Positions 49,002-63,702 of a stretch of DNA of 64,000 nucleotides are shown here, in pieces; within the stretch, counting starts at the first letter, position 1; each line of letters begins with the position of its first letter. A program made the position numbers and the translations under genes. The DNA is taken from the NCBI RefSeq assembly GCF_016820245.1, contig NZ_JAFCAR010000003.1:329001-393000 (forward strand), in the 5' to 3' direction. The notes under the pieces are model-generated. The model was not told the origin of the DNA, did no database searches, and saw only the letters and a program-made list of their open reading frames with translations. This stretch comes from Jannaschia sp. Os4 (GTDB taxonomy: Bacteria > Pseudomonadota > Alphaproteobacteria > Rhodobacterales > Rhodobacteraceae).

Positions 49002-49216
49002 GGGCCGAGGTCGAGCGCGCCCTGCGCCATCTGGCCGAGACGCGCACGGCCACCTTCTGCCCCTCCGAGGCGGCGCGGCGGGTGGCCGACGACTGGCGCC
49101 CGCTCATGCCGCTCGTGCGCGAGGTGGCGCGCGACATGGACCTCCGCGCCACCCAAGGCGGAACGGAGGTCGATCCGGTCACGGCCCGCGGCCCGATCCG
49201 GTTAACGAAACGCTAA
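48998..49216 (+). CDS. DUF3253-family small protein
   Basis: The 72-residue protein starts at GTG 48998, overlapping the exporter stop. F-C-P-S-E-A-A-R-R-V, D-W-R-P-L-M, V-R-E-V-A-R and D-P-V-T-A-R-G-P-I-R-L match DUF3253, a small winged-helix-like family of unknown function. It is soluble and basic, so nucleic-acid binding is plausible. The final codons overlap the converging L-lactate dehydrogenase gene by 4 bp. Confidence 0.78.
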   Translation: MRAEVERALRHLAETRTATFCPSEAARRVADDWRPLMPLVREVARDMDLRATQGGTEVDPVTARGPIRLTKR

Positions 49217-50355
49217 CGCTCCATTAACCGTCCCTTAACCTCCGCCAGCGACCCCGCCCCGATCTGCGTCATGCAGGACGTCATGTCGGCCCGCAGCACG
49301 TAGGCGAGATGGTCGATCCCCTTCCCCCCCAGCGCCCCCAGCGCGAAGTACCACGCCTTCCCGAGGAACACGTGGTCCGCCCCCAGCGCGATGGCCCGCA
49401 GGATGTCCAACCCCCCTGAAATCCCTGAGCAAAAGAGGACCGGCGCCCGCCCCGCCACGGCCTCCACGACCGGCGGCAGCGTGTCGATGGCGGCGGGTCC
49501 CCCCTCGAACTGCCGCCCCGAATGGTTGCTCACCCAGATCGCGTCGACCCCCATCCCCAGCAGCCGGTCCGCGTCCTCAGCCTCCGCCACGCCCTTGACG
49601 ATCAGCGGCCCGTCCCACTCAACCCGGCACCCCTCGATGTAGTCCCAGCCCGGCGAGCCCCGGATGATCTTGCCCGCATGGGTGAACCCGTCCTCGTTCA
49701 GCGCGGCGGTGTAGTCCTCGACGAACCGCATCCGCGGCATCCCCCGCTTGGCATGGCCCAAGGACCATTCGGGATGCATCACCATGTCCGCCACCATGCC
49801 CGGCGTGATCACGGGCGGCATCGAGATGTTGGCCCGCCGCTGCCGCTCCCGCCTACTCTCGCCCGGCACGTCCACCGTGACCACCAGCGCGCCCCACCCG
49901 GCCGCCTTGATCCGCCCCAGCATGTCCTTCCGGATGGCGGGATCGTTGACCGGATAGTGCTGATACCACCCCAGATCGCCCACGATCGGCCCCGTTTCCT
50001 CGGGGCGCGCGGCGGCCACGGTGGACTGCCCGTAGATCAGCCCGTTGCGCTTGGCCCCCTCGGCCATCGTCGCCTCGGCCCCCGGCCAGATCAGCCCCGC
50101 CATCCCCACCGGCGCGATGCCGAAGGGCTGCGCGTAGTCCCGCCCCAGCAGCGTGCAGGACAGGTCCGGCTCCACCTCGCCCCGCAGGATCGCGGGCATG
50201 AACCGCACCGCGTCCAGCCCCGCCCGGTTGCTCCGCACCCCGGCCTCCGTGCCGGTCCCCGAGTCCACGTACTCGAACGCGAACTTCGGCATCCGCCGCC
50301 GAGCCTTGGCGCGGAGATCGGAGATCGCGGGATACTTCAGATCGAGTTGGGACAC
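49213..50355 (-). CDS. lldD: FMN-dependent L-2-hydroxyacid dehydrogenase (L-lactate dehydrogenase type)
   Basis: This 380-residue FMN enzyme oxidises L-lactate or a similar L-2-hydroxyacid and passes electrons to the respiratory chain. The catalytic His lies in V-S-N-H-S-G-R-Q near residue 275. Other marks are P-I-V-G-D-L-G-W-Y-Q-H-Y near 125 and G-G-L-D-I-L-R-A-I-A-L-G-A near 312. The start is GTG 50355. An FAD-linked oxidase gene lies upstream on the same strand, 63 bp away; the two probably handle L- and D-isomers. Confidence 0.88.
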   Translation of the reverse strand: MSQLDLKYPAISDLRAKARRRMPKFAFEYVDSGTGTEAGVRSNRAGLDAVRFMPAILRGEVEPDLSCTLLGRDYAQPFGIAPVGMAGLIWPGAEATMAEGAKRNGLIYGQSTVAAARPEETGPIVGDLGWYQHYPVNDPAIRKDMLGRIKAAGWGALVVTVDVPGESRRERQRRANISMPPVITPGMVADMVMHPEWSLGHAKRGMPRMRFVEDYTAALNEDGFTHAGKIIRGSPGWDYIEGCRVEWDGPLIVKGVAEAEDADRLLGMGVDAIWVSNHSGRQFEGGPAAIDTLPPVVEAVAGRAPVLFCSGISGGLDILRAIALGADHVFLGKAWYFALGALGGKGIDHLAYVLRADMTSCMTQIGAGSLAEVKGRLMER

Positions 50356-50375
50356 GGCCCCGCTCCCTCATCTCA

Positions 50376-50418
50376 GCTCAAATACCTCGGGGGTCCGGGG
50401 GCAGCGCCCCCGGCGCCC
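50376..50418 (-). repeat. 3'-end element, diverged copy 6
   Basis: Read on the minus strand, the end of the FAD oxidase gene is followed by GGGCGCCGGGGGCGCTGCCC, then CCCCCGAGGTATTT and GAGCTGAGATGAGG. The hairpin and a TATTT core are kept, but the GCAAGAGGAAG tail is changed. It separates the oxidase gene from lldD. Confidence 0.5.
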
Positions 50419-51807
50419 TCAATCGGGGACCACCTTGCCGGGGTTCATCACCCCGTCCGGATCCAGCGCCCGCTTCACCGCGCGCATCACGTCCAGCGCG
50501 ACGGGGTCCTTGCGCCGCGTCATCGTCGCCAGCTTGGACAGCCCGATCCCGTGCTCCGCGCTGATCGACCCGCGCAGGTCGACCACGATCCCCTCCACCA
50601 TCTCCCGGATCGCGTCGAGATGGGCCGGATCGTCGTCCTTGGGATAGACCGTGAGATGCACGTTCCCGTCGCCTAAGTGACTGACGATCAGCGTTTCCGC
50701 CCCCGGCGACAGCCGCTCCAGCTCGTCGTGCATCCGGTCGATGAACGCCTCCACCCGGTCCACCGGCAGGCACACGTCGTTGTCCACGATGGGCAGCCGC
50801 GTGAAGGTGATCTCGGCGGCGGCCTCGCGCATCTCCCAGATCAGGCGGCGCTGCGCCTCGTCCTGCGCGACCATGGCGTCCAGCACCTCGCCCCGCTCCA
50901 GCGCGTCGCCCAGCACCTCCTCCAGCACGTCGTCCAGCGGGCGCGACAGGCCGCCCAGCTCGATCATCACCGCGTGGTCGCCCACCGGGAAGGGCTGGCG
51001 CAGGTCGGGGCGCAGGCGGGCCAGCTCGCCCATGTAGGTGCGCGGCATGTACTCGAACGCCTCCACCGCGCCGTCGCTGGCGGTCTGGAGGCGGTTGAGC
51101 AGATCCAGCGCGGCGGGCAGGCCGGCCACGGCGGCCAGCGCGGTGGCGTGGTGCCGGGGCTTGGGATGCAGGCGCACCACGGCGGCCGTGATCAGTCCCA
51201 GCGTCCCCTCGGCCCCGATGAACAGATCCTTGAGGTCGTAGCCGGAGTTGTCCTTGTGCAGCTCGCTCATCAGGTCGAGCACGCGCCCGTCGGCCAGCAC
51301 CACCTCCAGCCCCAGCACGAGGCCCCGCGTCGGCCCGTGCCGCACCACGTTGGACCCGCCCGCGTTGGTCGAAAGGAAGCCCCCCACCCGCGCCGACTGC
51401 CGCGCGCCGAAGGTCAGCGGGAAGACGAGACCCTCCGCCTCCACCGCGTCGTGGATGTCCGACAGGATCGCGCCCCCCTCGACCACCGCGAGGCGGGCGG
51501 CGGGCCGCACCTCCCGGATGGCGGCCATGCGCTCCAGCGAGACCATGACGGCGCCTTGGTTGGCCGTCCCCCCCACGAGGCCCGTGTTGCCACCCACCGG
51601 CACGATGGCGAGGCCATGCCGCGCGGCGCACCTGACGACGTCGGAGACCTCGGCGGTCGAGGCCGGGCGCACCACGGCCAAGGGATCGGCGCGCCACTTG
51701 CCCGTCCAGTCCTTGGCGAAGCGCGCGGTGTCCTCCCCCGTCAGCACCTGCGCGTCCCCCACGAGGGCGCGCAAGTCCGCGAGGGCGGCGTCGGCGGTGT
51801 CGAGCAT
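50419..51807 (-). CDS. FAD-linked D-2-hydroxyacid dehydrogenase (D-lactate/glycolate type)
   Basis: This 462-residue flavoprotein of the GlcD/D-LDH group has the N-terminal PCMH FAD domain (G-G-N-T-G-L-V-G-G near residue 73; G-G-F-L-S-T-N-A-G-G near 144). The C-terminal FAD-oxidase domain carries H-L-G-D-G-N-V-H-L near 383 and S-A-E-H-G-I-G near 421. Substrates in the family are D-lactate, glycolate or D-2-hydroxyglutarate. Its neighbour lldD suggests lactate. ATG 51807 follows a GGAGG ribosome-binding site. Confidence 0.9.
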   Translation of the reverse strand: MLDTADAALADLRALVGDAQVLTGEDTARFAKDWTGKWRADPLAVVRPASTAEVSDVVRCAARHGLAIVPVGGNTGLVGGTANQGAVMVSLERMAAIREVRPAARLAVVEGGAILSDIHDAVEAEGLVFPLTFGARQSARVGGFLSTNAGGSNVVRHGPTRGLVLGLEVVLADGRVLDLMSELHKDNSGYDLKDLFIGAEGTLGLITAAVVRLHPKPRHHATALAAVAGLPAALDLLNRLQTASDGAVEAFEYMPRTYMGELARLRPDLRQPFPVGDHAVMIELGGLSRPLDDVLEEVLGDALERGEVLDAMVAQDEAQRRLIWEMREAAAEITFTRLPIVDNDVCLPVDRVEAFIDRMHDELERLSPGAETLIVSHLGDGNVHLTVYPKDDDPAHLDAIREMVEGIVVDLRGSISAEHGIGLSKLATMTRRKDPVALDVMRAVKRALDPDGVMNPGKVVPD

Positions 51808-51890
51808 GGCAGGTCCTCCGGAGGGAGGGATGCCATGCGGCCCGAGGGGAAGGGAAGCGCCCCGCTCGGCGGCGGGCCCGGAGGGGCGGG

Positions 51891-53054
51891 CTACTCCGCC
51901 GCCACCCCGACCGGCGCGGGATCGGCCACCGCCAGTTCGATCTCTGGGAACTCGACCTTCGGCGCGATGCCCGACAGGCCCTCCCGGGCGGCGCGGTAGG
52001 CGCGCTCGTAGGACTGCACCATGCGCTCGACGGTGAACATCTCCTGCACCCGAAGGCGCGGGGTGGAGCGGGGGATCTTCATCGCCTTCTTGATGGCGAG
52101 TCCCAAGGCCGCCGGCTCGTTGGGCCGGGCGAAGCGGCCCGCCTCCTCGCCGATCACCTCGCGCGCGGCGCCGTTGTCGATGGACGCCACCGGCAGGCCG
52201 CAGGACATCGCCTCGACGGCGGCGAGGCCGAACGGCTCGTCCCACATCGGCGTGAACACCGCGACGGAGGCCTTCCCCATCGCCTCGGCCAGCTCGGGCT
52301 GGGGCAGGTGACCGCCGTAGCGGATCGTGTCCGACAGGTAGGGCCGGATCATGCGGTCGAAATAGTCCTGCCGCTCGATCGGGCCGTAGATCGTCAGCGG
52401 GACGCGGGCGAACTCGGCCGCCGTGACCGCGAAGTGGGTGCCCTTGTTGGGCGCGATGCGCCCCGCCCAGACGGCCGTGCCGTCGCCCTTGGGCTGGAGC
52501 GGCCATGCGCGCAGGTCGATCCCGTTGTGCACCACGTGCAGCGGATCGGGCGCGCCGCCGTTGCCCTCCTCGTCCACCGGCCACCACGAGCCGACCTGCG
52601 TCTGCGACGTCACGGTGAAGCGCGACCACGGGGCCGGGCTCTCGTGGACGGCGCGGCGCAGGGCGTCGAAGGGCGGGACGTGCAGCGACGTGACCATCGG
52701 GATCCGGTGCTGCCGCGACAGCCGGGGCGGGTAGCGATGCAGCGAGTTGTTGTGGACCACGTCGAACCCGCCATCGAGCAGCTCGCGCATCGTGCTGGCG
52801 AAGCCCGCGTCGACGTGCCGGTTGAGCGCCTCCGTCCCGTGGTTGTCGTGCCACGGGAAGTCGCGGTCGTAGTGGACGTCGAGGACCGGCACGAGCTTCG
52901 CGTCGCCCGCGTCCGAGTCGCCCGACGCGAAGAGGGTGACGTCGTGCCCCTTCGCGGTGAGCGCGCGGGTCAGGTGCCATGCGTGGCCCTCCATGCCCCC
53001 CATGAAGGGGGGGCGCACGGGGTGGCGCACATGGGCGAGGACGGCGATCCGCAT
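51891..53054 (-). CDS. Glycosyltransferase family 4
   Basis: This 387-residue GT-B transferase has G-G-M-E-G-H-A-W-H-L-T-R-A-L (19-32), the acceptor loop in a GT4 retaining enzyme. The donor-site E-x7-E lies in E-P-F-G-L-A-A-V-E-A-M-S-C-G-L-P near residue 275. A-G-R-I-A-P-N-K-G-T-H near 195 is also typical. A nucleotide-sugar donor is expected, probably UDP-glucose made by galU at the other end of this cluster. The acceptor is unknown. It is the last gene of the minus-strand cluster, starting 11 bp after the GT2 gene. Confidence 0.88.
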   Translation of the reverse strand: MRIAVLAHVRHPVRPPFMGGMEGHAWHLTRALTAKGHDVTLFASGDSDAGDAKLVPVLDVHYDRDFPWHDNHGTEALNRHVDAGFASTMRELLDGGFDVVHNNSLHRYPPRLSRQHRIPMVTSLHVPPFDALRRAVHESPAPWSRFTVTSQTQVGSWWPVDEEGNGGAPDPLHVVHNGIDLRAWPLQPKGDGTAVWAGRIAPNKGTHFAVTAAEFARVPLTIYGPIERQDYFDRMIRPYLSDTIRYGGHLPQPELAEAMGKASVAVFTPMWDEPFGLAAVEAMSCGLPVASIDNGAAREVIGEEAGRFARPNEPAALGLAIKKAMKIPRSTPRLRVQEMFTVERMVQSYERAYRAAREGLSGIAPKVEFPEIELAVADPAPVGVAAE

Positions 53055-53065
53055 GGTTTCGTTCC

Positions 53066-54097
53066 TTATTCGGCTGCCACTGAGGTAGCGCTGCGGGCCG
53101 GGATGTCCCGCATTTCCGCCTGCGCGGCCCGCATCGCCGCCACGGCCTCGTCGTCGGCGAGCTTGCGCCGCGCGCGCCGCTCTTGGAGCAGGCGGATCAC
53201 GCGGGTCGTGTTGGCGTAGGGCTCGTGGCTCTGCTGGCGGCAGAGGCGGTCGTCCTCGTCGTTGGGGCGGCGCACGACCTCGATGACGTCGCCCTGCCGC
53301 TCGATCAGGCCCATCAGCTCGAAGGCGTAGAGCCAGTGCTCCATCGTCCGGTAGCCCCACTTCTCGGCGAACAGCGTCGAGTTGCGGATCACCGTGTCCA
53401 TGTGGTGGATCGGCGGCATCGCGTGGGGGTGGTACTGGTGGTAGACCCGCGCGCCGCGCACCCACCAGATCGGCAGGCCGAGATGGTCGAGCGTCTTGCC
53501 GAAGTCGGTGTCCTCGCCGCCGTAGCCCTCGAACCGCTCGTCGAAGCCGCCCACGATGTCCCAGTCGGCGCGCCGCATCGCGAAGTTCAGCGACCAGAAG
53601 CAGCGGTAGTCGCGGCACAGTTCGCGCGGGCCCGCGGGCGGGCCCTGCCGGTCGGAATGCTTCTCGGCCACCTTGTCGAAGGACTCGTACTTCCAGCCGG
53701 GCGCGTTCTGGCCCGAGGGCAGGTACATCACCTCGCCCATCATCACGCCGCCCTCCTCGGCGGCGCGGCGGGCGTAGTCCTTCACGAGGGTGGGCCCGGG
53801 GATGCAGTCGACGTCCACGAAGGCCAGCACGTCGCCCGACGCGGCCCGTGCCACGGCGTTGCGCGCGGCCGCGAGCGGGAGTTCGTGGCCGGTCCGCACC
53901 TTGACCTGCCGGATCGGGAAGGGCGCGTCGGGCAGGGCGTAGTCGTCCGCCTGCATCACGCCGACGACGAGTTCATGCGGCATCACCGTCTGGCGGGTCA
54001 GGCCCCGCACGACGTTCGAGAGGTGTTCGGCGCGGCCCTTGGCGAGGGTCAGCACCGAGGTCCGTTGCAGGGCGGACGTGTCGGTCATCTCGGTCAT
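53066..54097 (-). CDS. Glycosyltransferase family 2 with GT7-like C-terminal region
   Basis: This 343-residue GT-A enzyme has the metal motif D-V-D (Asp95, Asp97) in F-V-D-V-D-C-I-P-G. G-G-F-D-E-R-F-E-G-Y-G-G-E-D-T-D-F-G (183-200) resembles the C-terminal part of galactosyltransferases (GT7/chondroitin polymerase type). It therefore probably uses an inverting UDP-sugar mechanism. No membrane segment is seen. ATG 54097 overlaps the upstream gene stop as ATGA; ATG 54088 is an internal alternative. The acceptor is unknown. Confidence 0.86.
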   Translation of the reverse strand: MTEMTDTSALQRTSVLTLAKGRAEHLSNVVRGLTRQTVMPHELVVGVMQADDYALPDAPFPIRQVKVRTGHELPLAAARNAVARAASGDVLAFVDVDCIPGPTLVKDYARRAAEEGGVMMGEVMYLPSGQNAPGWKYESFDKVAEKHSDRQGPPAGPRELCRDYRCFWSLNFAMRRADWDIVGGFDERFEGYGGEDTDFGKTLDHLGLPIWWVRGARVYHQYHPHAMPPIHHMDTVIRNSTLFAEKWGYRTMEHWLYAFELMGLIERQGDVIEVVRRPNDEDDRLCRQQSHEPYANTTRVIRLLQERRARRKLADDEAVAAMRAAQAEMRDIPARSATSVAAE

Positions 54098-55242
54098 TCT
54101 CCGGCTAGTTTGAAGGGAACGGGAGCGGTCGGGGCGGTCCGGCCCCCCGACCACAGCGACGTGGCGAGGCCGTCCAGCCAGCGCGCCGCGTGGGCGGCCG
54201 CGTCGGGACGGATCATCGCGCGCTGGCGGGCCGCGTCGTGGGACGCGCGCGCCTCGGCCAGCGCCTCGCGCCACGCGGGCGCGGAGGAGGGAAGATGGGG
54301 CAGGTGGTGGGCGGCGCCCGCGCGGTGGAGCGCGCAGGCCTTCTCCACCTGCTCGTCGAAATAGCGCCATTCCGGAACGGCGAGCCACGGCACGCCCGCC
54401 GCGAGCACCTGCTGGCACGTCGTGTTGCCCGTCGAGGCGACGATCATGTCGGCGCTCGCGATGTGGTCCGGCGCGTCGTCGACCCAGCCGCGATGCTCGA
54501 GGTTGGGCGGCTCGGTCGCGTGCCAGTTGCGCTCGACGGTGCCGATGGTGATCCAGCGGGCCGAGGGCACCGCGCGGGCGCCCACGCCCAAGGGCGCCGC
54601 GTGCACGCCGCTGCCGCCGCCGCCCGAGAGGACGAGGATCATCTCCTCGTCCGCGCCGACGCCGATCCGCTCGCGCGCGGCGGCGCGGTCGGGCATCTCC
54701 GTGCGCACGCCCAAGCCCCCCGCGAAGCAGGTCCGCGCGAGCCACGCCTCGTCCCAGTCGGGCTGCGAGAGGGCCGCGTCGAAGGGGGCGAGCACGCCCG
54801 CCGCGCCGTCCAGCGCCGCGCGGTGGCCGGGATCGGTGCGCCGCCCGTGCTGGAGCGAGACCACGTGGGGGACCGACATGAGCCGCGCGAGCTGCGCGAC
54901 CTCGGCGCTCACGTCCGAGACGACCAAGGCGGGATCGGCCCGGCGCATCCAGTCGGCCATCGTCCCCATCGCCTCGCGGATGGCGGGCCAGCCCAGCGGG
55001 GCGCAGTGCACCGTGTCGGGCTCCGGCAGGTCGATCGGCGTCTCGTCGCCGCGCGCCTCGAACAGCGAGGGGATGGGCACGACCGAGACGCGCGGCGGCA
55101 GGGGCGGGAAGATCGCGGGCTTGGCGCAGAACACGGTGACGGGCCGGTCCGGCGGCAGGGCGTGCAGCAGGTCGGCCGTCCGCTCGGCGTGGCCGCGGCC
55201 CTGATGGTGGACGAACCACCCGAGGGGCCGGTCGCCGCTCAT
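54094..55242 (-). CDS. GT-B glycosyltransferase, MurG-like (GT28 C-terminal domain)
   Basis: The 382-residue protein starts with W-F-V-H-H-Q-G-R-G-H-A-E-R (residues 9-21), the loop seen in MurG-like and glycosyltransferase-family-28 enzymes. The C-terminal domain has L-V-L-S-G-G-G-G-S-G-V near 209 and S-T-G-N-T-T-C-Q-Q-V-L-A-A-G-V-P near 275, where the UDP-sugar binds. It is not MurG itself: the lipid-binding region is absent and context differs. Translation is coupled on both sides by ATGA overlaps with the sucrose-phosphate synthase and the GT2 gene. Confidence 0.83.
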   Translation of the reverse strand: MSGDRPLGWFVHHQGRGHAERTADLLHALPPDRPVTVFCAKPAIFPPLPPRVSVVPIPSLFEARGDETPIDLPEPDTVHCAPLGWPAIREAMGTMADWMRRADPALVVSDVSAEVAQLARLMSVPHVVSLQHGRRTDPGHRAALDGAAGVLAPFDAALSQPDWDEAWLARTCFAGGLGVRTEMPDRAAARERIGVGADEEMILVLSGGGGSGVHAAPLGVGARAVPSARWITIGTVERNWHATEPPNLEHRGWVDDAPDHIASADMIVASTGNTTCQQVLAAGVPWLAVPEWRYFDEQVEKACALHRAGAAHHLPHLPSSAPAWREALAEARASHDAARQRAMIRPDAAAHAARWLDGLATSLWSGGRTAPTAPVPFKLAGE

Positions 55243-57320
55243 GGGCGGACCGCCGGGGCGAAGGCCACGCGGCGCGCGGGCACCGCCGCCGCGGGGGCCG
55301 CGGCGAGGCCGAGGCTGGCGAGCCCCTCCAGCACCCCGTCCGCGTAGGGCGCGACCGCGCGGATCAGGCCGGGCCGGGGCGGCAGGTCCAGTTCCGGCAG
55401 CGCGTTGCCCACCAGGATCGCGGCGCCCGCCGCGCGCAGCATCGACGCGTCGTTGCCGCTGTCCCCGCAGGCGATGCAGTCGTTGACCGACAGCCCCCAG
55501 ATCTCCGCGACCCGGGCCATCGCGCTCGCCTTGTCGGCGCGGGGGGCGAGCACGTCGATCAGGTTCTCGTGGCTGTGGATCACCGTGGCGTCCACGCCCG
55601 CGTTGCGGAGCACGCGCACGACGCGCACCGCCTCGACGCGGTCGCCGGTCAGGCCCAGCTTCCACCGCCGCTGCTCCACCTCGTCCTGGAACGTCGCGCC
55701 CGCACCCGACAGGGCGGTGCGGGCGGCCTCCGCGTCCCAGCCTTGCGAGATGCGCGCGGCATAGGTCTCGTCGAGCGTCGCGCGCCCGCCTACGTCGGGC
55801 AGGTGCAGCTCGGTGCCCACCGCCGTGACGAAGGCGTCCGGCTCGGGCAGGTCCCACCGGGCGAGGATGCGCCGCGCCTCGGTCAGCGAGCGGCCCGTCG
55901 CCACGGCCCACGGCATCCCCGCCGAGGCCAGCCAGCGCCGCAGCCGTCGCGCGCCCGCGCGGCTCCCGGTGAGGGTGCCGTCGATGTCGCTGACCAGCAG
56001 GCGGCGCGCTCCCCGGTGGGGGCGCCCTGCCGGACGGCGGGGCGCCTCGGCGAGCTTGGCGTAGATCGAGGTCGTGCGGGTGGCGTAGTCGTCCCACGAG
56101 TAGCGGGAGAGGTTCCGCTCCGCCGCCGCGGCATGGGCGGCGTGGCGGGCGGGATCGGAGACGACGGCGCGGATCGCCTCGCCCATCGCACGCACGTCCG
56201 TGGGATCGACGAGGACGCCGTGCCCGATGTCCGAGAGGATGTCGCGCGGCCCGCCCCGGTCGGTCGCCACCACCGGCAGGCGGTGGGTCGCGGCCTCGAG
56301 GAGCGTGAGGCCGAACGGCTCGTGCAGGGCCGGGTTCACGAACACCCCGCCCGAGCGCGCCGCGAGCCGGTAGAGCTGCGGCACGTCCGAGGCGACGTGC
56401 CGCTGGGGCAGGGCGAGGCGCCCGTAGAGGTCGTACCGGTCCATCCCCTCCATCAGGGCGCGGAGCGTGGCGCGCTGCTCGGCGCCGCCGCTCTCCGGCC
56501 CGTCGCGCAGGCCCGCCACGATGGCGAGGTTGGCGCGCTCGCGCAGGCCGGGCGTTGTGGCGTAGGCCTCCACGAGCGCGGGGAGATTCTTCTTGGCGAC
56601 GGGCCGCGCGATGGTCAGGATCAGCGGCTTGCCCGGGTCGCGCAGGAACCGCGCGAGCAGCGCCTCCGCCCCCGCCGTGCCGTCCCGTTCGGCCATCCAG
56701 ACGCCGGGCGAGGCGCGGTGCGTCCGCCCCTCCGCGTCCGTGCCGTAGGCCGTCACCTGCCGCTCCGCCTCGTCGCGCGACGAGACCACCACGGCGTCGG
56801 CGCGGGCGATGGCGTCCCGCTCCCGCGCGATGCGGCGCGCCAAGGCCGGGTCGGCGCCCATGCAGCCCCGCTTGTCGATCCCCAGCGAATGCGGCGTGTA
56901 AATCACGGGGATGCCCCATCGGTCGCGCGCCGCCAGCGCGAGCTCGGCGGCGTCGGCGAAGTGGGCGTGGATCGCGTCGGGCCTCGGCCCGCGCGCCAGC
57001 ATCCGCAGGAAGCTCGCGCGCAGGTCCGGCAGCGCGGCCTCGAGGTCGTCCTTGTCGAGGTAGCCCGGCCCGCCCCCCGCGATGCGGCGGATGCGCGTGA
57101 CGCCGTCCACCGGCTCGACGGCGCGGGCATGCGCGCTGTCGAGGGCGGGGTCCGAGAAGGCGCGGGTGACGATGTCGATGCGGGCCACGTCGCCCCGCCG
57201 CGCCTGCGCGGCGGCGGCGCCGAGGACGTAGGCGATGTGGCCGCCGGTGTCCTCGGTCACTCCTAGGCGGATGGGCGGCGCCTTCAGGCAGCCGCCGAGG
57301 GCGACGTGCATGACATACAT
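55239..57320 (-). CDS. Sucrose-phosphate synthase fused to a HAD sucrose-phosphatase domain
   Basis: The 693-residue protein joins two enzymes. Residues 1-430 are a GT4 sucrose synthase/SPS-like domain: V-T-E-D-T-G-G-H near 21, L-T-I-A-R-P-V-A-K-K-N near 247, and E-P-F-G-L-T-L-L-E-A near 336. Residues 440-680 are a HAD-IIB phosphatase with D-I-D-G-T-L (Asp445, Asp447) and C-G-D-S-G-N-D near 610. Together they could turn UDP-glucose plus fructose-6-phosphate into sucrose. Acceptor residues are not verified, so a glucosyl- or mannosyl-linked analogue is possible. ATG 57320 begins the conserved start. Confidence 0.85.
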   Translation of the reverse strand: MYVMHVALGGCLKAPPIRLGVTEDTGGHIAYVLGAAAAQARRGDVARIDIVTRAFSDPALDSAHARAVEPVDGVTRIRRIAGGGPGYLDKDDLEAALPDLRASFLRMLARGPRPDAIHAHFADAAELALAARDRWGIPVIYTPHSLGIDKRGCMGADPALARRIARERDAIARADAVVVSSRDEAERQVTAYGTDAEGRTHRASPGVWMAERDGTAGAEALLARFLRDPGKPLILTIARPVAKKNLPALVEAYATTPGLRERANLAIVAGLRDGPESGGAEQRATLRALMEGMDRYDLYGRLALPQRHVASDVPQLYRLAARSGGVFVNPALHEPFGLTLLEAATHRLPVVATDRGGPRDILSDIGHGVLVDPTDVRAMGEAIRAVVSDPARHAAHAAAAERNLSRYSWDDYATRTTSIYAKLAEAPRRPAGRPHRGARRLLVSDIDGTLTGSRAGARRLRRWLASAGMPWAVATGRSLTEARRILARWDLPEPDAFVTAVGTELHLPDVGGRATLDETYAARISQGWDAEAARTALSGAGATFQDEVEQRRWKLGLTGDRVEAVRVVRVLRNAGVDATVIHSHENLIDVLAPRADKASAMARVAEIWGLSVNDCIACGDSGNDASMLRAAGAAILVGNALPELDLPPRPGLIRAVAPYADGVLEGLASLGLAAAPAAAVPARRVAFAPAVRP

Positions 57321-57403
57321 CGGATTTCGCTCGCTTGCAGGTTGTGCCCTTCCAACCCACCCCCTCCCCCCCGGTTCCGCCCCGGACGACGGAAAAATCA
57401 CCC

Positions 57404-57431
57404 TTGACGTAGAACCCGCCCCCCCTAGATG
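57404..57431 (+). promoter_or_regulatory. Orphan sigma70-like promoter on the plus strand
   Basis: TTGACG (57404-57409) and TAGATG (57426-57431) are spaced by 16 bases, a good alphaproteobacterial promoter. All genes here run the other way, so it would make an RNA antisense to the otsA 3' end. A TTTTCC-ACA-GGAAAA hairpin lies at 57450-57464. Confidence 0.35.
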
Positions 57432-57465
57432 CGCGGTCCATTCATCTGTTTTTCCACAGGAAAAT

Positions 57466-57484
57466 CCCGACCCCGCGGGGCGGG
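57466..57484 (-). terminator. Hairpin after otsA
   Basis: Imperfect palindrome CCCGACCCCGCGGGGCGGG, two bases from the otsA stop at 57487. On the minus strand it is followed by ATTTTCC. A weak intrinsic terminator between otsA and the sucrose-phosphate synthase gene is possible; it could instead be only an attenuator. Confidence 0.4.
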
Positions 57485-57486
57485 CG

Positions 57487-58908
57487 TCATCCGGCGCGCA
57501 TCCGCAGCGGCAGGCTCGCCGGCGCCTCGGCCAAGCGGTCGAGGAAGGTCTCCGCCCAGTGGCCCACGTCGTCGCGGAACACCCCCTCGCGCAGGGCCGC
57601 GTGCCGCGCGCGCCGCTCCGCGGCGGGCATCCGCAGCGCCCGGTCGATGGCGGCGGCGAACCCCGCCTCGTCGTAGGGGTTCACGAGCAGCGCCTCGGTC
57701 ATTTGCTCCGCCGCGCCGGCGAAGTGGGACAGGATCAGCACGCCCGGGTCGTCGGGATCCTGGGCGGCCACGTACTCCTTGGCCACGAGGTTCATCCCGT
57801 CGGCCAAGGGCGTCACCAGCGCGACGTCGGCGCGCCTGTAGAGCGCGGCGAGGCGGTCGCGGTCGACATGGGAGCGCACGTAGCGGATCGGCGTCCAGTC
57901 CAGCGTCGAATGCGCGCCGTTGATCGAGCCCGCCGTGCGCTCGAGATCCTCGCGGATATCCTGATACGCCACCACGTCGCCGCGGCTCACGGGCGCGATC
58001 TGCAGGTAGGTCGGCTTCACGTCCGGGTCGCGGTGCTCGGCGAGGTAGGTGCCGAACGCGTCGAACCGCTTCACCAGCCCCTTGGAGTAGTCGAGTCGGT
58101 CCACCCCCAGCAGCAGGGGGGAATCCCGCGTCGGCAGCGTGAGGCGCGGCAGCACCCCCGCCTCGGCCGTGCGCGCGAAGCCCTCCGCGTCGATCCCGAT
58201 CGGGAAGCGCCGAACCGAGAAGGTCCGCCCCTGCCGCGACAGCATCCCGTTGTTGAGGAGTTCGGTGTGAGGGTCATGGCGCAGCAGCTCCAGCGCCGCG
58301 ATCACGTCCCGCTCGGTCTGGAGGCCGAGGAGGTCGTGCGCCGCGAGCCACGCCGGCAGCATCGCCACCTGCGGCAGCGCCATGGCGTCGGTCGGGCCGG
58401 GGAAGGGGATGTGCAGGAACAGGCCGATCCGGTTCTCGACGCCCATCTGCCGCAGCTCGTGGGCGAGCATGAGGAAGTGGTAGTCGTGGATCCAGATCAT
58501 GTCGTCCGGCTCCAGCCGGTCGCGCAGGGCGCGCGCGACGCGGCGGTTCACCGCGACGTAGTGGTCGAAGTCCCCCTCCGACACGGCCACGAGGTCCGGA
58601 CGGTGGTGGAAGAGCGGCCAGAGGACCGAGTTGGAGTAGCCGAGGTAGTAGCCCTCCTGCTCCGCATGGCTCAGCGGGAAGGCGAAGCGCTGGTAGGCGC
58701 CGGTCGGGTCGGGGCCGAGGTCGCGCAGCCCGCCCGAGGTGTCGCCGCCCGGCTCGTCCGCGCCGATCCAAGACCCGCCCGTGCCGCGCAGCGCCTCGTC
58801 GAGCGCGTAGATCAGCCCGCCCGCCGGCACGTCGCCCTTGGGCACGCGGTTCGAGACGACGACGAGGCGCCCCCGCGACCGGCCGCGCGGTGAGGATCCG
58901 TCAGGCAA
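57487..58908 (-). CDS. otsA: Trehalose-6-phosphate synthase
   Basis: OtsA joins UDP-glucose and glucose-6-phosphate to trehalose-6-phosphate. The 473-residue GT20 protein has G-G-L-I-Y-A-L near residue 31, W-P-L-F-H-H near 94, I-W-I-H-D-Y-H-F near 137, G-V-D-R-L-D-Y-S-K-G-L near 264, and D-G-M-N-L-V-A-K-E-Y near 360. No ATG lies before the conserved start, so TTG 58908 is chosen; it overlaps the otsB coding end by 8 bases. Osmotic control is expected from the family but is not visible here. Confidence 0.9.
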   Translation of the reverse strand: MPDGSSPRGRSRGRLVVVSNRVPKGDVPAGGLIYALDEALRGTGGSWIGADEPGGDTSGGLRDLGPDPTGAYQRFAFPLSHAEQEGYYLGYSNSVLWPLFHHRPDLVAVSEGDFDHYVAVNRRVARALRDRLEPDDMIWIHDYHFLMLAHELRQMGVENRIGLFLHIPFPGPTDAMALPQVAMLPAWLAAHDLLGLQTERDVIAALELLRHDPHTELLNNGMLSRQGRTFSVRRFPIGIDAEGFARTAEAGVLPRLTLPTRDSPLLLGVDRLDYSKGLVKRFDAFGTYLAEHRDPDVKPTYLQIAPVSRGDVVAYQDIREDLERTAGSINGAHSTLDWTPIRYVRSHVDRDRLAALYRRADVALVTPLADGMNLVAKEYVAAQDPDDPGVLILSHFAGAAEQMTEALLVNPYDEAGFAAAIDRALRMPAAERRARHAALREGVFRDDVGHWAETFLDRLAEAPASLPLRMRAG

Positions 58909-59683
58909 GCCAGTCCTCCAAGAGGTCGAGCAGGTCGTCCGGGCCGCCAAGGCGGTGGTTCGCGACCGTCTCCGCCGCGCCGACCTTGATCGCCGCCCCG
59001 CCGCGCCCTTGGACGAGGTCCAGCGCGGGCTCGTCGGTGAGGTCGTCGCCGGCGTAGATCGGCACCGTGTCCATCAGGTCGGGCCGCGCGAGGAGACGCT
59101 TGAGCGCGACGTCCTTGCCCACGCAGTCGGGCTTGAGCTCGTAGGCCATCAGCGCGGGCTGCAGCTTGAAGCCGTCGGCGGCGCAGGCCAGCGCCTCCAT
59201 GAACTTCAGCGCCACGCCGCCCAGTTCCTCGGCCTGCCGGTAGTGCAGGACCACGCCCGAGGGCTTCGGCTCGACGAGGAACTCGGGCCGCAGGGCACCG
59301 AAGTCGCCCACCAGCCGCTGGAGCCGGGCCACGGTGTCGAGGTCGAAGTCCTGGACCTGGCTCCACTCCATGTCGACGCGGAACTCCGCGCCGTGGGTGC
59401 CGATCATGTGCCCGCGGAATCCGGGGAGGAAGTGCTCCAGCGCCTCGATCGACCGCCCCGACACGAGGCCCACGCGCCCGTCCAGCCGGTCCATCGCCCG
59501 CGACAGCAGGTTCGGGACGCGCGGATCCACCACCACGTCCTGCGGGCGCGCCGCGATCTCCACGAGGCTGCCGTCGAAGTCGAGGAACAGCGCCGCCTCC
59601 GCCGGGTCGGGCAGGGCGATGCCGTCGGAGGCCGCCACGGCGGCGTCCTGCTGCATGAAGCCGGTCATCTGATAGTACTGCAT
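58901..59683 (-). CDS. otsB: Trehalose-6-phosphate phosphatase
   Basis: OtsB removes phosphate from trehalose-6-phosphate. The 260-residue HAD phosphatase has the nucleophile in L-D-F-D-G-S-L (Asp35, Asp37). V-S-G-R-S-I-E near 77 and G-D-D-L-T-D-E near 215 complete the active site. ATG 59683 has a GGGAGG site 9 bases upstream and is better than an ATG 30 bases earlier. The 3' end overlaps otsA, in the order otsB-otsA. Confidence 0.93.
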   Translation of the reverse strand: MQYYQMTGFMQQDAAVAASDGIALPDPAEAALFLDFDGSLVEIAARPQDVVVDPRVPNLLSRAMDRLDGRVGLVSGRSIEALEHFLPGFRGHMIGTHGAEFRVDMEWSQVQDFDLDTVARLQRLVGDFGALRPEFLVEPKPSGVVLHYRQAEELGGVALKFMEALACAADGFKLQPALMAYELKPDCVGKDVALKRLLARPDLMDTVPIYAGDDLTDEPALDLVQGRGGAAIKVGAAETVANHRLGGPDDLLDLLEDWLA

Positions 59684-59732
59684 CCCTCGGACCTCCCTAA
59701 GGCAACCCGGCATCCGCCGGGCCGTTCCCTCC

Positions 59733-59751
59733 CCCCGCCGCGAAGGCGGGG
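59733..59751 (-). terminator. Hairpin after galU
   Basis: CCCCGCC and GGCGGGG arms with a 5-nt loop, two bases beyond the galU end (59754). No U-tract follows, and a run of G appears on the minus strand. Partial read-through into otsB is plausible. Confidence 0.35.
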
Positions 59752-59753
59752 AT

Positions 59754-60623
59754 TCACTCGGCGGCGACCCGCAGGTGCGGCGCCGCGCGCGCGCTCCCGT
59801 GCCGCATCGCCTGGACGGCGAGCGTCGCCTCGACCATGCCGTCCTTGCTGCCGCAATCGTGCCGCGTCCCGGAGAAGCGGAAGGCGTGGATGCCGCCCAT
59901 CGCCGCGATGGCGTCGGTCAGCTGCACCTCGCCCCCCGCGCCGGTCCCGGTGCCGCGGAGCACGTCGAAGATAGCCGAACCAAGGACATAGCGCCCGACG
60001 GCCGCCAGTCGAGAGGGCGCGTCGTCGGGATCCGGCTTCTCCACGAACCCGGTGGCGGCGCGGACGGGTCCCCGCTCGGGGGTGCCTTCGCCGCAGTCGA
60101 AGATGCCGTAGGAGGAGACGCGCTCGCGCGGCACCTCCTGCGCGGCCACGAGGCTGCGCATGGCCCCGGTCCACGCCTCCGCCATCTCGGCCAGCGCAGG
60201 CGACCCGAGGATCAGGTCGTCGGGCAGGATGACGCCAACCGGCCCGCCGCCGACCACCGCCTCGGCGCCGCACAGGACCGCGTGGCCGAGGCCCAGCGGC
60301 TCGTCCTGCATCACGAACGTGACCTCCACGCCGTCGGGCAGGCGGGAGGAGCGGACGACCTCCAGCAGGTCGGCCTTCCCCTTCGCGGCCAGCGACGCCT
60401 CGAGTTCGGGCTGGGGCGCGAACCAGTCCTCGATGGCCGCCTTGTCGGGGTGCGACACCATCACGAGGCGGCGCGCCCCGGCGGCCAGCGCCTCCTCGAC
60501 GGCGAAGTGCAGCAGCGGCGTGTCGTAGACGGGCAGGAGCTCCTTCGGCGTCACCTTGGTGGCCGGCAGCATCCGCGTCCCCATCCCCGCGACGGGAAAG
60601 ATAACCGTGTCCAGACGGGGCAT
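59754..60623 (-). CDS. galU: UTP-glucose-1-phosphate uridylyltransferase
   Basis: GalU makes UDP-glucose from UTP and glucose-1-phosphate. The 289-residue length is typical. The nucleotide loop G-M-G-T-R-M-L-P-A-T-K-V-T-P-K-E near residues 13-28 and F-V-E-K-P near 175 are family signatures. It is the first gene of a seven-gene minus-strand cluster that consumes UDP-glucose (otsA, sucrose-phosphate synthase, three glycosyltransferases). GAGGAGA precedes the ATG. An inverted repeat lies 27 bp upstream. Confidence 0.94.
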   Translation of the reverse strand: MPRLDTVIFPVAGMGTRMLPATKVTPKELLPVYDTPLLHFAVEEALAAGARRLVMVSHPDKAAIEDWFAPQPELEASLAAKGKADLLEVVRSSRLPDGVEVTFVMQDEPLGLGHAVLCGAEAVVGGGPVGVILPDDLILGSPALAEMAEAWTGAMRSLVAAQEVPRERVSSYGIFDCGEGTPERGPVRAATGFVEKPDPDDAPSRLAAVGRYVLGSAIFDVLRGTGTGAGGEVQLTDAIAAMGGIHAFRFSGTRHDCGSKDGMVEATLAVQAMRHGSARAAPHLRVAAE

Positions 60624-60668: not shown

Positions 60669-60761
60669 GCGTCATTTGACATGAAACGTCGGACCGCGGG
60701 AGGGGGTTCCTTGCGGGGCGGCGGAAAAATGCTGCATTGCCGCATTCGCGGAACGCACTAC

Positions 60762-63473: not shown

Positions 63474-63702
63474 ACTATGTTCACGGTGGTTCCGCTGCAA
63501 GCGGAACGATCGCCGCCGGCGGTCGTCCGCGCGCCCCTGTCGCCATGCCCGCATCGGGCGAGCGTCCGGGGCGGGCGCGCACGTCATCGTGGAACAATCC
63601 CCCCCCACGGCGACGTTGGGGGGGCGATGACGGCCTGCGGACCGTCACGCCTTCAAGACCCGCCGGGGCGCCGCGTCCCGGATGCCTGCACGGAGCGAGA
63701 GC

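Follow-up and report, generated by a model that had tools for sequence, protein, structure and literature searches.

The DNA considered here is a 64,000-nucleotide stretch of the genome of Jannaschia sp. Os4 (referred to as the window), which at positions 51891-60623 carries seven intact genes on the minus strand. These are galU, otsB, otsA, a fused sucrose-phosphate synthase/sucrose-phosphatase gene (SPS/SPP) and three glycosyltransferase (GT) genes, called GT-B, GT2 and GT4 below (Table 1). Third-position GC is 0.94-0.97 across all seven, and each has a label-consistent Pfam match over the curated cut-off (GalU-type, OtsB, OtsA, SPS/SPP fusion, GT28-C GT-B, GT2/GT7C and GT4, respectively), that of GT-B barely so (23.4 vs 22 bits). 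The common strand of the seven genes and the ATGA overlaps reported in a preliminary description of this DNA are confirmed, as is the 8-base overlap of otsB and otsA, given a TTG start for otsA. That description also treated the seven genes as one cluster. A conserved cluster does exist, consisting of the four genes SPS-GT-B-GT2-GT4, but galU, otsB and otsA are separate neighbours of it. Because a gap of 166 bases (57321-57486) lies between otsA and SPS, and because a separate promoter motif of the general-stress type precedes each block, two transcription units are more likely than a single seven-gene operon.

Table 1. Features of the locus, with positions counted within the window
Feature	Position	Strand	Remarks
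Putative EcfG promoter upstream of galU, GGAAC-N17-CGTT	60685..60710	-	Exact pattern match
galU, UTP-glucose-1-phosphate uridylyltransferase-like	59754..60623	-	PF00483 2.8e-22; TIGR01099 257.8 bits, cut-off of 326.8 not reached
otsB, trehalose-6-phosphate phosphatase	58901..59713	-	PF02358 9.9e-20; TIGR00685 100.2 bits, above cut-off of 68
otsB/otsA overlap, 8 bases	58901-58908		Requires otsA start at TTG, 58908
otsA, trehalose-6-phosphate synthase	57487..58908	-	PF00982 1.3e-103; TIGR02400 474.9 bits, cut-off of 564.9 not reached
Putative EcfG promoter before SPS, GGAAC-N16-GGTT	57354..57378	-	Starts 58 bases before SPS start codon
SPS/SPP, cassette gene 1	55239..57320	-	GT4-fold SPS domain ~1-430 and HAD sucrose-phosphatase domain ~439-670
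ATGA overlap SPS/GT-B	55239-55242
GT-B glycosyltransferase (GT1/GT28-like fold), cassette gene 2	54094..55242	-	PF04101 7e-5
ATGA overlap GT-B/GT2	54094-54097
GT2, GT-A glycosyltransferase with GT7C-like part, DVD and GGEDTD motifs, cassette gene 3	53066..54097	-	PF02709 3.9e-9, PF00535 2.3e-7
GT4 glycosyltransferase, glucosylsucrose synthase relative, cassette gene 4	51891..53054	-	PDB 7fg9 (TeGSS), window sequence alone 1.3e-31

SPS/SPP, GT-B, GT2 and GT4 make up a cassette that is widely conserved in bacteria. Its distribution was followed in three partly overlapping genome samples, drawn from the family (149 genomes, including that of the window), the class (385) and the phylum (378), with homologues accepted at E<=1e-30 for SPS and, for GT2, at E<=1e-20 in the family and 1e-40 or better in the phylum. 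SPS, GT2 and a close GT-B homologue occur in the same seven of the 149 family genomes, with SPS and GT2 present as single copies in each. The GT-B homologues of the six relatives share 56-64% identity, and all other GT-B matches are at 1e-11 or worse. SPS-GTB-GT2 stand together, in order, in all six relatives, and GT4 lies within 2.7 kb of them in five, inverted in one. The class sample has SPS and GT2 in the same four genomes, ~1.2 kb or less apart in all four; in one of these (G480), the SPS-adjacent GT2 is a second copy, and the best GT2 is on another contig. GT2 relatives are present in 18 of the 378 phylum genomes. All nine with a best score of at least 304.9 bits also contain SPS, as opposed to none of the nine at 284.3 bits or less (SPS at 1e-30). 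Two SPS-bearing genomes, G846 and G647, lie outside the class.

A broader set consists of 80 alphaproteobacterial loci, the best 80 of at least 581 confirmed GT2 relatives (at least 597 stretches were matched when a GT2 alignment was searched against GTDB representatives), and partly overlaps the six family relatives (L036, L048 and L075). It covers rhodobacteral genera (Loktanella, Jannaschia, Sulfitobacter, Paracoccus, Limimaricola and others), Sphingomonas and Methylobacterium/Methylorubrum, with further loci from Asaia, Paeniroseomonas, Pseudochelatococcus and a Beijerinckiaceae metagenome-assembled genome. GT2 is present in 80 loci, GT4 in 79, GT-B in 77 and SPS in 75, and all four genes are present in 74. 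Three of the loci without SPS (L054, L063 and L085) have a contig end near GT2, the four loci with an inverted GT4 are from Limimaricola, and the 20 Methylobacterium-group loci with SPS have an extra GT2 between SPS and GT-B. The search for gene set and gene order that the preliminary description had proposed thus returns SPS-GTB-GT2-GT4 on one strand in 70 of the 80 loci, direct adjacency not being universal, and the placing of the three GTs with SPS/SPP holds, as they co-occur and lie together in distant relatives.

The 29 SPS-linked rows of a GT2 tree form one supported group (95/94), with the SPS-less GT2s outside it, and the window type is a supported group nested within (100/99); the root serves only for drawing, and long branches (L138a, L138b, L133 and L131) make parts of the tree unsure. 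The corresponding GT-B tree has poor resolution. Acetobacteraceae rows of the GT2 tree are nested with Sphingomonas and Methylobacterium, which, together with the sporadic presence of the cassette in the family, suggests that it has spread horizontally. A simpler form, distinct from the window type, is found in L131:6642-14210 and L132:6274-11511, the latter outside the class, and comprises SPS-GT2 with a convergent GT-B and a TeGSS-type GT4 nearby. Five of the nine SPS-less GT2 genomes were also retrieved. One (L135) has GT2 alone, and the other four, from other Pseudomonadota, have a more distant GT4-GTB-GT2 set (L134:7670-13936, L136:7513-13706, L137:5651-8581 and L138:4134-8047), which is probably a sister pathway using another acceptor. 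Some neighbours of these sets appear stress-like by eye, namely a catalase in L134 and, in L136, a Crp-type regulator along with a DUF892-like protein.

The window SPS/SPP protein matches PF05116 (1.3e-44; 153 bits, cut-off 20.3), the SPS structure PDB 2r60 (8e-32) and the sucrose-phosphatase 1s2o (2.5e-22). A profile search of the PDB likewise places 2r60 nearest (3.4e-68) and matches the C-terminal domain to 1s2o (2.7e-44). DxDGT and GDSGND are motifs of HAD-IIB sucrose-phosphatases, and both (the former as DIDGT) are in the sequence. According to PMC7264703, the SPS of Thermosynechococcus, TeSPS, is inactive without His158 or Glu331. Aligned via PDB 6kih, whose chain numbers are those of the paper + 3, these residues correspond to His144 and Glu334, and the TeSPS residues Arg105 and Arg178, which hold the phosphate of sucrose-6-phosphate, correspond to Lys90 and Arg163; all four are invariant in 25 sequences. 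As both SPS and SPP score under the NCBIfam equivalog cut-offs, the protein belongs to a divergent subfamily, with sucrose as its presumed disaccharide.

For GT4, a profile of 35 sequences has as its best PDB match 7fg9 (7.3e-54, 186 bits; the next family scores 165 bits). This is the glucosylsucrose synthase TeGSS of Thermosynechococcus, which extends sucrose and whose gene, tll1591, was chosen for study since it is near the SPS gene tll1590 (PMC9909042). Residues Arg179, Lys184 and Glu256 of the TeGSS UDP-diphosphate site, along with Trp254 at its rim, correspond to Arg199, Lys204, Glu273 and Trp271 of GT4, invariant in the 35 sequences; the glutamate appears as both 256 and 265 in the paper. 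By sequence, GT4 is thus related to a GT that extends sucrose, and it may act as TeGSS does. A second GT4, divergent from SPS, is present in each of the 20 SPS-bearing loci of the Methylobacterium group; the one tested, from L093, aligns with TeGSS along its entire length (1.7e-61).

The predicted structure of GT-B (pLDDT 89.5) has CalG1, OleD and MurG among its best PDB folds (TM ~0.6), and that of GT2 (pLDDT 93.6) is closest to chondroitin polymerase (TM ~0.5), which is also its nearest solved relative by sequence profile. Families GT1/28 and GT2 are usually inverting and family GT4 retaining. NCBIfam yields only weak, sub-cut-off matches for GT-B, GT2 and GT4. No likely membrane segment is seen in any of the four cassette proteins, the top 19-residue mean hydropathy being 1.53.

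Genes that might decorate the product accompany the cassette according to clade (clades being assigned by organism names, and the Pfam label of each decoration group being taken from one representative). A sulfotransferase adjoins the cassette in 29 of the 34 rhodobacteral loci but in none of the 46 others. In Sphingomonas, 13 of 18 loci have a polysaccharide pyruvyltransferase together with another GT2, both absent from the 62 other loci. In the Methylobacterium group, 12 of 21 loci have a methyltransferase, which recurs in one of the 59 others. The link between decoration and clade is strong but not absolute.

Regulation of the cassette may be linked to the EcfG general stress response. The genome of the window encodes a NepR that scores above the Pfam cut-off, with adjoining reading frames that look EcfG-like and PhyR-like by eye. 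Beside nepR are two overlapping sites in opposite orientation, GGAAC-N16-TGTT and GGAAC-N16-GGTT, and the site before SPS has the same form. EcfG-type promoters of Sphingopyxis have a flexible -10 box, TGTT and GGTT included (PMC7083833), and this flexibility and the nepR sites back the relaxed NGTT form. Of 34 rhodobacteral sequences, those of the window and 33 loci, 20 have GGAAC-N15-18-NGTT in the 200 bp before SPS; the reverse strand has it in 0 of 34, and 0.3-0.4 would be expected. Related loci in this count are not independent, and the relaxation to NGTT was set post hoc, after the sequences had been viewed. One of six sequences from other groups also has such a site, and the strict form, GGAAC-N15-18-CGTT, is found in 6 of 75 loci vs 0.43 expected. 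These motifs are consistent with EcfG control of the cassette transcript.

Several further features of these upstream regions were noted. In the window (57354-57378) and in Loktanella loci (L034, L036), the spacer of the EcfG-like site before SPS consists almost entirely of G (e.g. CGGGGGGAGGGGGGGA), and G/C-run spacers occur in 5 of 24 EcfG-like sites vs 63 of 1546 background stretches. Upstream of SPS in Sphingomonas (e.g. L110 and L113) there is a common motif resembling GGGANNC...ACGTT(C), present in 15 of 15 sequences, a circular count as the motif was derived from the same sequences; it is unlike the usual EcfG -35 box and may mark another extracytoplasmic function (ECF) sigma factor. 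The window has two more GGAAC-N18-CGTT sites, at 63591 and 7858, both on the plus strand. In L044:681-16875, Pfam identifies a catalase and also a Crp-type regulator near the cassette; LigD-like and Ku-like genes are recognized there by eye, and the region is possibly a stress island.

The galU-otsB-otsA block appears to be an ordinary trehalose unit and is a mere neighbour of the cassette in this genome. None of its genes is present in the cassette regions of the six family relatives. An otsA-like (GT20) gene is located away from the cassette in five of them, and the sixth has no match. Three relatives have a close otsA (56% identity) with otsB adjoining, and in one case galU as well; two others (L126 and L127) have only a distant GT20 match (33%), which is perhaps not an OtsA. 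Across the 80 loci, otsA is found in none, otsB in two and galU in one. The link of the three GTs to trehalose that had been proposed is therefore not borne out: conservation of the GTs with otsA is lacking, but their conservation with SPS is evident. A single seven-gene pathway can be set aside, given the location of otsA-like genes in the relatives and the 166-base gap with its promoter motif. In L126:638-2889 and L127:687-2862, the distant GT20 follows a weak SPS-like stretch (27-28%), and perhaps belongs to another glycosylated-solute pathway. On the other side of the cassette, the same strand continues with a GlcD-like FAD oxidase gene and a lactate dehydrogenase-like, FMN-dependent one (49213-51810, minus); the former is found in none of the 80 loci, and the latter is weakly matched in two.

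On balance, the cassette is probably a stress-linked four-gene set for a soluble, cytosolic, sucrose-primed hetero-oligosaccharide that is charged or methylated in some clades. If substrates, product, linkages, function and regulation are read from the observed gene content, conservation, co-occurrence, homology and promoter motifs, SPS would convert UDP-glucose and fructose-6-phosphate to sucrose-6-phosphate, from which the fused SPP would free sucrose, as the conserved residues suggest. GT4 would add a sugar with retained (alpha) configuration to sucrose or to a sucrose-headed intermediate, and GT-B and GT2, from usually inverting families, would attach further residues. In many relatives the chain could then be finished according to clade, with sulfate in rhodobacterales, a pyruvate ketal and one more sugar in Sphingomonas, and a methyl group in Methylobacterium. 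Because the four proteins lack membrane segments and no exporter or lipid-linking enzyme is recognized as travelling with them, the product is most likely soluble and intracellular; it may be a compatible solute or protectant turned on with the EcfG general stress response, with trehalose made separately by the galU-otsBA unit. The larger sugar-based solute of the preliminary description thus becomes plausible on a sucrose basis, GT4 being kin to a sucrose-extending enzyme, but not on a trehalose one. Its suggestion that the compound may be new stands on a single point, that no description of the cassette was found in the open-licence literature, most subscription journals falling outside that search.

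A more ambitious proposal, and a tentative one, is that these products constitute an undescribed class of stress solutes: sucrose-primed hetero-oligosaccharides made by a conserved three-GT set, with clade-specific sulfate, pyruvate or methyl caps, run by EcfG and spread horizontally in alphaproteobacteria, with a related form outside them. The sucrose of heterotrophic bacteria is usually taken to be a simple osmolyte. If the proposed pathway is correct, sucrose would instead prime a larger oligosaccharide, clade-tailored and often charged, in many alphaproteobacteria, including marine rhodobacterales, Sphingomonas and Methylobacterium, and the general stress response would gain a concrete metabolic output.

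Besides the two limits on the promoter count given above, several observations tell against a stress-linked, sucrose-primed product. GGAAC-N15-18-NGTT is absent upstream of SPS in the 15 Sphingomonas and the 20 Methylobacterium-group sequences. One family relative (G058) has no GT4 nearby, L100 also lacks GT4, and in L050 and L095 GT2-GT4 is accompanied by neither SPS nor GT-B, although these loci have 10 kb of flank free of N runs. A sulfotransferase occurs in L139, from another family of the class and outside the 80 loci; none of the decoration genes is seen alongside the window cassette, and a search of the window genome with one sulfotransferase query, made without a positive control, gave no match. 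Since GT4-GTB-GT2 sets exist without SPS, sucrose need not be the acceptor in the wider family. Another disaccharide could be made, as both SPS (TIGR02472, 333 vs 576 bits) and SPP (TIGR02471, 118 vs 210 bits) fall far under the NCBIfam equivalog cut-offs. Finally, Tyr18 and Trp10 of TeGSS contact sucrose, and the Y18F variant is nearly inactive (PMC9909042). These two residues align with Met18 and Arg10, respectively, of the window GT4, with Arg10 invariant in the 35 sequences, and the acceptor or donor may therefore differ from that of TeGSS.

It is improbable that SPS has a different specificity, for instance like that of mannosylfructose-phosphate synthase, and that the oligosaccharide is built on the resulting non-reducing disaccharide. 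The missed equivalog cut-offs would fit such an enzyme, as would a Gly-Gly-His, invariant in 25 sequences, where 2r60 has Gly-Gly-Gln; however, SPS 2r60 is the closest solved enzyme, the catalytic His and Glu and the basic pair Lys90/Arg163 at the sucrose-6-phosphate phosphate positions are kept, and TeGSS-like genes adjoin SPS. A transferred cyanobacterial alpha-1,2-glucosylsucrose pathway, in which GT4 is a plain glucosylsucrose synthase and GT-B and GT2 are unrelated to it, would explain the homology of GT4 to TeGSS and its adjacency to SPS, but GT-B and GT2 are tied to SPS as strictly as GT4 is, and the two sucrose contacts are changed; this explanation is very unlikely.

It is also unlikely, though a little less so than an altered SPS specificity, that GT-B, GT2 and GT4 make a glycolipid or an exported or surface anionic (sulfated or pyruvylated) glycan, with sucrose or its phosphate as a mere by-supply. 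Pyruvyltransferases and sulfotransferases are common in surface-glycan pathways, and genes with these Pfam labels lie beside cassettes; the nearest solved fold to GT2 is a capsule polymerase, and there is a weak, sub-cut-off similarity to EpsD. Yet no flippase, polymerase, export ABC transporter or priming GT was recognized in the 45 recurrent neighbour groups listed (assessed by eye and in part checked with Pfam), so that the surface glycan offered as an option in the preliminary description finds no support in gene content. The lack of membrane segments in the cassette proteins also argues against it, and the SPS/SPP product would be a soluble non-reducing disaccharide, whose lipid linkage would need a further enzyme.

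Several known systems resemble the proposed sucrose-primed pathway in part. The mannosylfructose pathway of Agrobacterium uses an SPS-like synthase and an SPP-like phosphatase to make an osmoprotectant disaccharide; to our knowledge no extra GT set belongs to that pathway. The OtsA/OtsB trehalose pathway adjoins the cassette in the window and has its own general-stress-type promoter motif, but it is apart from the cassette in all six relatives and needs no GT beyond OtsA. Chondroitin polymerase K4CP (PDB 2z87) is nearest to GT2 by sequence profile and fold; it is a capsule polymerase of ~600 residues, whereas the GT2 of the window, at 343 residues, has a single domain. Cyanobacterial tetrahydrobiopterin glucosyltransferases (PDB 9v0l and 5zer) are the second closest solved relatives of GT4, but score more weakly than TeGSS and, by their name, act on a pterin acceptor. 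The closest parallel may be the cyanobacterial sucrose/glucosylsucrose pathway (TeSPS tll1590 and TeGSS tll1591; PMC7264703 and PMC9909042), in which an SPS gene is likewise near a related retaining GT of GT4 fold, and the product of which is raised by salt and heat stress in cyanobacteria (PMC9909042). That pathway, as described there, has one GT, which builds alpha-1,2-glucose chains on sucrose, whereas the cassette has three from different families. The cassette differs further in the two altered sucrose-contact residues of GT4, the fusion of SPP to SPS, the clade-specific sulfate, pyruvate and methyl enzymes, and the EcfG-type promoter motif.

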